Shown here piece after piece: positions 56,395-60,811 of a stretch of DNA of 64,000 nucleotides. A program made the translations under genes and the position numbers. A model generated the notes under the pieces. The model saw only the letters and a list, made by a program, of their open reading frames with translations, had not been told where the DNA came from and ran no database searches. The stretch's first letter is position 1. Every line of letters begins with the position of its first letter. The DNA is from Thermocoleostomius sinensis A174 (GTDB lineage: Bacteria; Cyanobacteriota; Cyanobacteriia; Elainellales; Elainellaceae): assembly GCF_026802175.1 (NCBI RefSeq), contig NZ_CP113797.1:5557026-5621025 (forward strand). Direction: 5' to 3'.

Positions 56395-59300
56395 ATGATT
56401 TCATACTTGTATGTGCCCATGTTCCAAGCGGCGTTTGAACGATTTTGGGAACTCCTTGGTGGGGTCTTTGCCCTCAATGCGGAAGCCTTTCGATCGCTCA
56501 GTGAATTACCTCTTGGTTTAATTGTGTCGTTGGCAATCGTTATCGCAGCAGGATTATCACAGGCGATTGCTCAAAGCATCATTTTATTTATTAATCAGGT
56601 GAAGCCGCTACGCTTCATTTTCAGTTTATTGCTGAATGCAGTACTGTTCACCTTTGGCTATCTGTTTTTGGTACTCAGCACTTGGGCCGTCACGCTCTTA
56701 CATTGGACAGAACCCATCCCTCTGATTGTCTTGGTTGTGGTGCTTGGAATCAGCTATGCCCCGCTAGTATTCAGTTTTCTGGGAGCAATTCCCTATCTAG
56801 GGGTACCGCTTCTGACCGTGCTTGCTATTTGGCACTTGTGGGAAATGATAGTTGGGATTACGGCGGTAACAGAGTTAGGCATTGTGGGCGCAGTCAGCTA
56901 TGTTGCGATCGGATGGCTAGTTTTGCGGTTACTAGAATCAACCGTAGGACAGCCGTTAGCTAACTTGGGGCGATGGTTATCCAACAAAATTGCGGGCGTG
57001 CCTTTGGTGACTCGCAACAGCGATCTTCGAAGAATTGTGCAGGGTGTCGTGGAGCAGACTACCAGCGGGGTACAAATTTCACCACAGTCATCGATGGCGG
57101 GCTATCAGGGGCCATCCTTCGATCGCACCCTAACCGATCGCCAAACCAAGCAATCAACTAGACGCCGATCGCAATCATCATCGTCCTCTGCAAACTCAAC
57201 AGACGAACCCAGTGAAGAGCCGATCGTGTTCACGCTTGATCCAGCCAGCATTCGGGCAGCGGTATTGAAATTGCGCACCACTCGCAAACCGCCCCAAGGC
57301 ATCAATCGCAAAATTCGCACGATCTTGGGGTTGGTGGGCATGGCGGTGCTGGTATTTCTAGTTGTGGTCGCCTTTGACCCACTGCGAGCTTGGCTCGTTG
57401 CCCAGATTGAACAATTCCCCGAACCGTTTCGGTTTTTGTTTGATTTAACCTGGATTGGATTCATTGCGCTGGTAGTGGCTGGACTGTTAGCCCCGTTGGA
57501 ATCACTGGGCTGGTGGGCTGGATGGTATGCCGATGACATCGACATGATTCTAAATGCTGGCACGTTGGCAACCCCGATCGCCAACGAATCAGACATTTCG
57601 CACTTTGTTGTCTACCTCGATGGCATCAGCAAGTCTACGTTTGAGTATTTGCCAGATGTCGAAGAATTTCTGCACGCCCTTACCCCGGCTTTGCCAGAAA
57701 ATGTGGCACTGATTCGCGATATCATGCCCTACTCGGTGCTAAACAATCCACTGGTTGAAGATCGCCCGCTCGCATTTTTGTGGCGCTTAAGCGACGATCG
57801 CCGGCTGAATAATCCGGCTAGTTTATTAGGCATGTTGATCAATTTGCGAAATGTGTGGACGGTAGCTGTTTCGGCCGATAAGCGCTACGGGCCGATCTAC
57901 AACCAAGGCATTGCTCAAGTGATTTACAACGGGTTAATCAACCACGGCTATCATCCTGACAGTGGCATTCCTGTCACTTTAATTGGCTTTAGCGGCGGCG
58001 GACAAATGGCAGCGGCATGTGCTCCGTTCTTAAAACGCGCCTTGAATGGGCCGATTGATGTGATCTCGCTAGGCGGGGTGATCAGCGGTAACTGCAACAT
58101 TCTGAAATTGGAACACCTCTATCATCTAGTTGGACAAAAAGATATTGTCGAGCGACTCGGAGTGGTGATGTTTCCGGGGCGCTGGAAACTGTTTCCTTTG
58201 TCCTATTGGAACCGAGCCAAAAAGCGGGGCAAGATTAGTGTCGTATCTTTGGGGCCAGTGGGGCATCAAATTCCCGGTGGGCTGATGGACCCTGAACAAT
58301 TCCTGCCCGATGGTCGTAGCTATTTGCAACAAACGATCGATTTCATTGCGGCGATTTTGCATGGAGAATTGCTGCGAGAAGAACGGGTTGCCAACCGCCA
58401 ACCTAGTAACTATCAACTCTATCAACAAGCTGCCTTCAACCATCCTGATTATTACCCGCTGACGCAGCCAGTTCCACTCGATCGCTATCAGCCGGTTGCG
58501 CCGTGGATAGGACGCCTGATCCTGCCGTCTCCGTCTGCTCGCAAACGAGTCAAAGGGGCACTGTTTGAAGTTCATCATGCCCCGATCGAGTATCACCACC
58601 TAGTGGGGCGAATTGTGATGCTGCAATGGAGCTACAATCCCAATGTGCGGGCGTTGGTACGAGCCGTCACCAAAGATGTACACTTTAGTGCAGAAGCCGA
58701 TTATACCAGCGAATATGGCGGGCTAGTGCACCCTGAGCGGTTGGATCACTGGCGACAGGTGGGGCCATTGGAATCCTTGGCTGGATCGCGCCCCCAGGAT
58801 GATGTCATCGTGATGCTACCGTCCAAGGTGGAGGTGGAGGAATATCAGCGGCTGGAAACTAAGGAAACAGCCAAGGAACTGCCGATCGATCCCGCCCAAC
58901 TTCATCCAGACTCTGCTGTGCCTTCTGCGCCTTCTGTTAGCTATGTGCTGCGTATCGAGAGCCAACCGATTCAAATTACCGGGCGGTTTTACGGGCTGGT
59001 GCAGTTTCAGACCGCGCTGGACGACGATCGGTTTCAGGTGGTGCACTTTAATCGACAGTCGCGTCAGTTTAATGGCCCTGAAGAAATTGTGCGGTTGCCA
59101 CAGGTAGTAGCGGATCAAAACGGTGTCTTTCCATCGACTAGTCATGGAATTGAACGCTCTGCCCCTAACACAACCGGATGGTATATCTACGGTGCCCCCG
59201 ATGCTGATGGTGTGTTTGTGGTACAGTCCCTTGCCCCTCGGGCGCTGCTGTGGCTACAGCCCGATCAAATCATTTGTGGTCGTCAAGCAGCTTACCATTA

Positions 59301-60252
59301 CATCCGCAATCAGGCCTGGGCTAATATTGCTGCCCAAAAAGGCAAAATTAGCTCGGTGTTGCTGAATCCTTCTGAACAGAGATATCAGGCAGCGATCGAA
59401 GATTGGCACGTCGGCGATCGGGCATTAGTGCTACATGTGTATGGCGGCATTGGCGGCAAAAAGCGGGAACCTGCGGCAGCAACTCCGTTGTTTTTTGGCC
59501 ATTTCGCCTACGGAGTGGCCACCGTTGTACATGATCCAATAGCTGATGAGCGCCGCTTTGATATTCGCTATTACCAGGTCTATACTCACAACACCGATGG
59601 GTTAGTGGCGGGTGTGCTGCACTGGAGTCGCTACATGGGCGATCGCCAGTTTGGTTGGATGGGTACACGCCCAGTTTGCGATATTTTGATCAAACTAGAA
59701 GCCTTCACAAGACGTTATCGATTTGGTGATATGGAGCGATCGCCACTAGAAACCATGCTTCAGCAGCTTGAGGCTATGACGGCTCGATACCGGATTGGCG
59801 ATGGTACGGGTGGAACCTATGTGGGAGTCGCCAATAACTGTGCACAAGACTCGAATCAAGCACTGTTCGCCAGTTTGGTGCATCTAGAAACAAATGTTCG
59901 CAATGGTCAAGCCTGGCTGGAACAGTGGTCAGTGACCCATCCCGATCAAGCTCAACGGTTTGAGCAACTGCTGTCCTTAAAACGATCGCTGAAGCGCCAA
60001 TTGCAACCGTTTGGCGTGCCGCGTCCAGACTGGGAGAAAAACGAATACAACTTGGGCAGCACCCTAGAAGATGAACCCCTGCGCAATCTGGTGACGGGAC
60101 TGGGCAGTTGGCGAACCATTTTGCCGCGCTTGGCCAGTGATGCGGTTGTCAAAAGTTTCCTTCGTCAAGGGGCCACCGTTTGGGTCTTGCGTACTAGTCA
60201 AGTGGGCGGGTTTGATCCTGACATTGAACCGATCGCCCCCATGACGTTATAG
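56395..60252 (+). CDS. very large membrane protein with predicted serine-hydrolase domain
   Basis: 1285 residues. About five membrane segments occupy residues 30-190, then a Ser-rich linker (~240-275) and two more segments (~305-380). Residues ~400-660 look like an alpha/beta hydrolase: PVTLIGFSGGGQMAAACAPFL with nucleophile S533, D583 in VGQKDIVERLGV, and H624 in LGPVGHQIPGG, in the correct Ser-Asp-His order. The C-terminal ~620 residues match nothing I know; NCAQDSNQALF near residue 1150 is a notable Cys-containing motif. It may act on a lipid or peptide at the membrane, but the substrate is unknown. Start may be ATG 56395 or 56419. Confidence 0.7.
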   Translation: MISYLYVPMFQAAFERFWELLGGVFALNAEAFRSLSELPLGLIVSLAIVIAAGLSQAIAQSIILFINQVKPLRFIFSLLLNAVLFTFGYLFLVLSTWAVTLLHWTEPIPLIVLVVVLGISYAPLVFSFLGAIPYLGVPLLTVLAIWHLWEMIVGITAVTELGIVGAVSYVAIGWLVLRLLESTVGQPLANLGRWLSNKIAGVPLVTRNSDLRRIVQGVVEQTTSGVQISPQSSMAGYQGPSFDRTLTDRQTKQSTRRRSQSSSSSANSTDEPSEEPIVFTLDPASIRAAVLKLRTTRKPPQGINRKIRTILGLVGMAVLVFLVVVAFDPLRAWLVAQIEQFPEPFRFLFDLTWIGFIALVVAGLLAPLESLGWWAGWYADDIDMILNAGTLATPIANESDISHFVVYLDGISKSTFEYLPDVEEFLHALTPALPENVALIRDIMPYSVLNNPLVEDRPLAFLWRLSDDRRLNNPASLLGMLINLRNVWTVAVSADKRYGPIYNQGIAQVIYNGLINHGYHPDSGIPVTLIGFSGGGQMAAACAPFLKRALNGPIDVISLGGVISGNCNILKLEHLYHLVGQKDIVERLGVVMFPGRWKLFPLSYWNRAKKRGKISVVSLGPVGHQIPGGLMDPEQFLPDGRSYLQQTIDFIAAILHGELLREERVANRQPSNYQLYQQAAFNHPDYYPLTQPVPLDRYQPVAPWIGRLILPSPSARKRVKGALFEVHHAPIEYHHLVGRIVMLQWSYNPNVRALVRAVTKDVHFSAEADYTSEYGGLVHPERLDHWRQVGPLESLAGSRPQDDVIVMLPSKVEVEEYQRLETKETAKELPIDPAQLHPDSAVPSAPSVSYVLRIESQPIQITGRFYGLVQFQTALDDDRFQVVHFNRQSRQFNGPEEIVRLPQVVADQNGVFPSTSHGIERSAPNTTGWYIYGAPDADGVFVVQSLAPRALLWLQPDQIICGRQAAYHYIRNQAWANIAAQKGKISSVLLNPSEQRYQAAIEDWHVGDRALVLHVYGGIGGKKREPAAATPLFFGHFAYGVATVVHDPIADERRFDIRYYQVYTHNTDGLVAGVLHWSRYMGDRQFGWMGTRPVCDILIKLEAFTRRYRFGDMERSPLETMLQQLEAMTARYRIGDGTGGTYVGVANNCAQDSNQALFASLVHLETNVRNGQAWLEQWSVTHPDQAQRFEQLLSLKRSLKRQLQPFGVPRPDWEKNEYNLGSTLEDEPLRNLVTGLGSWRTILPRLASDAVVKSFLRQGATVWVLRTSQVGGFDPDIEPIAPMTL

Positions 60253-60277: not shown

Positions 60278-60811
60278 ATGTCTCAATCTTCTGCCCCGTT
60301 GGTTCTCACACTCAAGCTAGATGGTCATAGCTTCGATCGCTTCAATTCTTTGCGGCAACAGCATTTCCCCCCTGAGCGCAACTTTTTGCCTGCTCACATC
60401 ACGCTGTTTCATGCTCTTCCCAGTCAACACGAACGATCGATCTGTCATACCCTCCAGGAGGTTTGTTCTCAGACATCCGTATTGCCACTGATATTCCCTA
60501 CCCTGCGATGTTTGGGTAACGGTGTGGCCATCGAGGTAGAGTCTTCTGAATTGCTGCAAATCCACCAAGATTTAGCCTATCGCTGGAAAAACTGGCTCAC
60601 GCCGCAAGATCGGCAACGCTATCGATCGCACATCACGATTCAAAACAAAGTTTCACCCGAACAAGCTCGGCAACTCTACGATCGGTTATTGCCCGAGTGG
60701 CAGCTTCAGCAGGGACAAGGAGAGGGGTTACTGTTGTGGTACTACAAGGGTGGCCCGTGGGAACTTGTCCAGGAATTTGGGTTTAGTCAAACAAATAACG
60801 CAAACAAGTAA
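60278..60811 (+). CDS. 2H phosphoesterase (2'-5' RNA ligase family)
   Basis: 177 residues with the two HxTx motifs that define the fold: HITLF near residue 42 and HITIQ near 123. Members hydrolyse 2'-5' or cyclic phosphodiester bonds in RNA or nucleotides. The first and last strands (VLTLKLDGHSFDRFNSL, GEGLLLWYYKGGPWELVQEF) fit the family. It starts 25 bases after the 1285-residue gene on the same strand and is probably cotranscribed with it. Confidence 0.88.
   Translation: MSQSSAPLVLTLKLDGHSFDRFNSLRQQHFPPERNFLPAHITLFHALPSQHERSICHTLQEVCSQTSVLPLIFPTLRCLGNGVAIEVESSELLQIHQDLAYRWKNWLTPQDRQRYRSHITIQNKVSPEQARQLYDRLLPEWQLQQGQGEGLLLWYYKGGPWELVQEFGFSQTNNANK

Follow-up and report, generated by a model that had tools for sequence, protein, structure and literature searches.

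The window analysed here, a stretch of 64,000 nucleotides of DNA from Thermocoleostomius sinensis A174, encodes a protein that joins a serine hydrolase to a Yip1-like membrane domain and to a domain of 620 residues; this fusion is common in one cyanobacterial group and unnamed. As an explanation of the whole, we consider rather probable a serine hydrolase anchored in the membrane, with a Yip1-like partner and a second, C-terminal unit. The alpha/beta-hydrolase fold itself is known; the conserved membrane architecture around it is undescribed, and one domain family is unassigned. The conserved Yip1-hydrolase pairing and the unassigned C-terminal domain are what the present analysis adds to a preliminary description of the same DNA.

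Gene and domain organization

The whole gene lies at 56395..60252 on the + strand, as do all features given below, and runs from ATG to stop, encoding 1285 residues just as the preliminary description had read it. Since full-length relatives 53-61% identical to the window protein occur in many genomes, and three further loci of the family are present in the window's genome, the frame was taken to be real and not a product of chance. No reliable match to the whole protein was obtained in Pfam, NCBIfam, PHROGs, PADLOC models or PDB sequences; a defence-system reading was set aside, PADLOC having given no match. The multi-pass character claimed earlier was reproduced by a simple Kyte-Doolittle scan, which revealed seven hydrophobic segments, five of them in residues 40-179 and one each at 309-327 and 347-365. 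Three modules act as units, namely the Yip1-like module (residues 9-224), the hydrolase (351-654) and the C-terminal module (670-1285). Between the first two lie a linker of residues 225-308 (57067..57318), which is poorly conserved and positively charged by charge count, and the last two hydrophobic segments (57319..57489), which lead into the hydrolase. When the side of the membrane was read from the charge rule, different forms of the protein gave contradictory sides.

As had been noted, a 2H-type phosphoesterase gene (PF13563, E 2.4e-20) starts at 60278, 25 bases past the stop codon. The hint of a link between the two genes gained no support, the neighbour not being kept beside the gene in relatives. 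In nine relatives, the 2H homologues sit on contigs other than those of the listed family matches, and the phosphoesterase was rejected as a functional partner; in the two exceptions the homologue shares a contig with a stand-alone hydrolase, about 16 kb and 125 kb apart.

Identification of the serine-hydrolase domain

The hydrolase domain with its membrane-proximal lead (57445..58356) was delimited by alignment and structural matches. The alignment comprised 38 domains with 29-71% identity to that of the window, drawn from three phyla (cyanobacteria, Alphaproteobacteria and Actinomycetota), with Sinorhizobium, Microvirga and Nonomuraea represented. No more than 15 of its columns were invariant, and among them were S533 (57991..57993), the predicted nucleophile, D583 (58141..58143), the predicted catalytic acid, and H624 (58264..58266), the predicted catalytic histidine and only invariant His of the domain. 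GFSGGG occupies residues 531-536, and the triad proposed from the letters of the DNA proved exact in position and order. D495 was likewise invariant, and a role for it as a helper residue is conceivable.

In the AlphaFold model of residues 1-670, which is of low confidence (mean pLDDT 47.8) because only six sequences went into it, a nucleophile elbow was predicted, with a strand at 527-532 followed by the elbow and a helix at 534-550; a hydrophobic strand-like segment precedes both D583 and H624. All 50 of the 50 listed VIA-align matches of this model were alpha/beta hydrolases (Z 7.0-8.6; rmsd 3.5-5.9 over 143-188 residues). They included RavL, TesA, APT1, cutinase, DDHD and lipase types, the top match, still with a low-confidence model, being RavL (Z 8.6, 159 residues, rmsd 3.9), and the matches listed by Foldseek were mostly alpha/beta hydrolases too. 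A VIA Z below 8 by itself may reflect a common arrangement; weight was placed here on the uniformity of the matches, taken with the invariance of the triad and with the Thioesterase, lipase and Abhydrolase models that family members matched weakly. Pfam Thioesterase was touched weakly by 9 of the 38 members (best E 0.0011), weak lipase and Abhydrolase Pfam matches were also seen, and three weak PDB sequence matches each spanned the nucleophile elbow. The window's own hydrolase fell below every Pfam and NCBIfam cut-off and reached no named alpha/beta-hydrolase family. As implied by the superpositions, S533, D583 and H624 would lie close together in the modelled fold.

The invariant triad and the uniform structural matches thus give good support to the earlier proposal that a multi-pass protein here contains an alpha/beta hydrolase. 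We regard the fold assignment as nearly certain and catalytic activity as highly likely. The Ser-Asp-His order, the SGG elbow and the superposition over residues 389-663 are shared with the alpha/beta-hydrolase superfamily. However, the window protein fits no named family within it, whether of thioesterase, cutinase, acyl-protein thioesterase, RavL or DDHD type, and differs in being membrane-anchored, paired with a Yip1-like module and, in the fused forms, extended by a module of 620 residues.

Pairing of the hydrolase with a Yip1-like membrane module

The N-terminal membrane part of the protein (residues 9-224; 56419..57066), with five hydrophobic segments, had escaped the preliminary description and is judged Yip1-like from its sequence relatives. 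The Pfam Yip1 (PF04893) cut-off of 28.6 bits was passed by 6 of 9 scanned stand-alone relatives (29.7-39.5 bits), and the presence of several hydrophobic segments is a further feature shared with the Yip1 family. Residues 1-297 of the window protein gave no direct Pfam Yip1 match over 28.6 bits, and the assignment therefore rests on the relatives (E 1.3e-85 with a profile of the module). In contrast to the Yip1 family at large, the module here is tied to a hydrolase. Eukaryotic Yip1 proteins are described in one account as mostly Golgi proteins (PMC6682643).

In the sampled cyanobacteria this pairing is fixed. At each of the 15 distinct cyanobacterial loci whose hydrolase has its own gene, a Yip1-like gene adjoins it, divergently in 14 and co-directionally in one (L047), where hydrolase, Yip1-like gene and C-terminal module, the last as a third gene, form a same-strand cluster. 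In one genome (L080) the Yip1-like module and the hydrolase are fused without the C-terminal module, and at six loci (L010, L021, L025, L026, L038 and L048) the hydrolase is fused to the C-terminal module and has an upstream Yip1-like neighbour in place of the N-terminal fusion. For the C-fused hydrolases of L011 and L012, no Yip1-like gene was seen in the short flank examined. Outside cyanobacteria, a membrane protein of 163-170 residues was found directly upstream of the hydrolase in all three loci examined. With 9-14 bits in a three-sequence search and an hhalign probability of 7.5% (controls below 1%), a relationship between this protein and the Yip1-like module is suggestive only. We consider that the Yip1-like partner is very probably required for function.

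The Nonomuraea (L059:2856-6894) and Sinorhizobium (L057:4226-7026) hydrolases follow genes for the small membrane protein and a UDP-glucosyltransferase-like protein, and a patatin-like phospholipase gene lies upstream in the former. Such lipid-related neighbours were present only in these distant loci.

Features of the C-terminal module

That the last 620 or so residues match nothing was confirmed against Pfam, NCBIfam, PHROGs, PADLOC and PDB sequences. The module (residues 670-1285; 58402..60249) has no assigned fold and recombines with other parts: it was also found by itself, and in some proteins a stretch of about 200 residues carrying an Rce1-like (CPBP) domain comes after it. The latter arrangement was seen in three proteins of 830-890 residues (L045:5363-7900, L060:5905-8406 and L032:11295-13913), the tail passing the PF02517 cut-off in the first two and not in the third. 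Of 194 genomes sampled from the phylum, 28 carried the module.

In an alignment of 45 sequences, H884, H1014, H1036, C1149 and Q1151 were invariant and D1152 nearly so, with a conservation peak at about 1007-1156. H1036, in GHFAYG (59500..59502), and C1149, in NCAQDSNQALF (59839..59841), are candidate catalytic residues; the latter motif, which had been pointed out before, starts at residue 1148. The module is a sizeable cyanobacterial domain family without an assignment and with a clear candidate active site.

The AlphaFold model of the module was of low confidence (mean pLDDT 53.9; both models were built on 6-8 sequences), and structure searches with it gave nothing usable (best Foldseek E 0.54, best VIA Z 3.9). 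When 292 genomes were searched for remote relatives of the C-terminal slice, the weak matches were open reading frames from one deep-branching genus (E 0.002-0.02). These aligned mainly over helices, lacked the Cys and are presumably TolC-like outer-membrane efflux proteins, and they were therefore dismissed as chance matches.

Distribution and history of the family

Family matches were found in 42 of 60 genomes, a sample mostly from the window's family. The window's genome holds, besides the present gene, a second full-length copy (59% identical), a split version (L038) in which a Yip1-like gene accompanies a gene for the hydrolase and C-terminal module, and a locus (L039) where hydrolase and Yip1-like module are neighbouring genes, each standing alone. 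A peptidase S51 gene (L037:2076-2957), which we take to be cyanophycinase-like, lies upstream of the second full-length copy at a distance of about 4 kb. No family members were found on viral contigs, and no hydrolase-domain match in phages.

A maximum-likelihood tree was built from 59 hydrolase domains. In it, the hydrolases fused to the C-terminal module formed one group (40 domains, 91/96), the stand-alone hydrolases another (15 domains, 100/100) and those from outside cyanobacteria a third (3 domains). Because the C-fused hydrolases form a single group, the tree fits a single fusion event joining hydrolase and C-terminal module. At two further loci the family gene is split into overlapping frames near residue 374-383 (L022:438-4164 and L030:171-3875), with a further break near residue 1140 in the second; these are possibly assembly frameshifts in fragmented genomes.

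Alternative explanations

Some plant hormone receptors use the alpha/beta-hydrolase fold without turnover, and such receptors were among the VIA matches of the 1-670 model, so the domain could in principle have been retained as a receptor or structural part that has lost turnover. However, a full Ser-Asp-His set and SGG elbow kept invariant across such wide divergence would be unusual for a pure receptor, and we hold this very improbable beside an active hydrolase. For the C-terminal module, the choice is between a catalytic and a binding part. A non-enzymatic scaffold recruiting substrate to the hydrolase, e.g. through a beta-barrel at about 700-865 and a His/Cys metal site, would agree with the existence of the module without the hydrolase; among its invariant residues, three His and one Cys could bind metal. 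Residues 700-865 also gave repeated OB-fold matches (Z 2.6-3.9, all tied, from a poor model), but this signal is at noise level, and the strongest conservation, at about 1007-1156, falls outside the barrel-like region and resembles an active site more. Such a scaffold is somewhat unlikely, and a thiol enzyme in general comes close to an even chance, a little on the doubtful side.

The more specific proposal places the module among the circularly permuted, papain-like NlpC/P60 thiol enzymes, which would make the protein a two-step acyl hydrolase or transferase with Ser and Cys sites. The order of a GD-strand, GH(F/Y) and then (N/S)C opening a predicted helix is that of permuted NlpC/P60 enzymes; H1036 precedes C1149, both invariant in the 45 sequences, and a helix was predicted from C1149 onward in the weak model. 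The His-before-Cys order and the Cys at a helix start are, as signs of this fold, suggestive only. In Staphylococcus aureus, LnsA (permuted NlpC/P60) and LnsB (CPBP-like) jointly N-acylate lipoproteins (PMC7387801), and the same two kinds of part are joined in the sister proteins in which the candidate thiol module is fused to an Rce1-like CPBP domain. In the window protein, on the other hand, a Yip1-like domain and a serine hydrolase take the place of CPBP, and the profile of its C-terminal module did not resemble those of the permuted NlpC/P60 families compared. The parallel is an analogy of parts rather than a demonstrated relationship. With hhalign and a shallow profile of the module, the C-terminal catalytic slice gave 0.07% and 0.24% against LRAT and Peptidase_C92, compared with 75% in the LRAT-C92 control; the module also lacked any Pfam or PDB match, and no papain-like fold was among the structural matches listed for the weak model. 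We therefore treat the permuted NlpC/P60 assignment as tentative and somewhat doubtful. The counterpart motif in LRAT is NNCEHF. An LRAT-family protein is encoded elsewhere in the window's genome (L087, G000:C1:1953735-1954046), and of 117 genomes sampled from the phylum, 27 contain this family; a search of the sampled phylum for Lnb_N gave no member.

Proposed mechanism and implications

In the mechanism that we favour, S533 would be the nucleophile that attacks an ester or thioester, H624 would serve as the base and D583 as the acid, and the Yip1-like domain would be a dedicated partner, most likely holding or positioning the hydrolase at a lipid surface. Such a placement would make a lipid or lipid-modified protein the probable substrate, and a lipid or acyl compound is slightly favoured. 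The C-terminal module, around H1036 and C1149, would add another functional unit; its most plausible role is thiol hydrolysis or acyl transfer, either on the substrate of the hydrolase or on the one that follows. The full combination, in which two acyl-chemistry centres, S533/D583/H624 and a new thiol family with H1036/C1149, share one polypeptide on a Yip1-like membrane platform, is rather unlikely.

Most sampled genomes of the window's family hold at least one copy of this gene, yet the searched libraries give it no name. Through the fixed pairing with a serine hydrolase, bacterial Yip1-like proteins gain a function that can be tested, and the unassigned C-terminal domain family can be probed through two residues. 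If the two-centre reading is true, the protein would represent a new type of acyl-transfer machine in the cyanobacterial envelope or thylakoid, with a thiol module that in other proteins is combined with a CPBP membrane domain.
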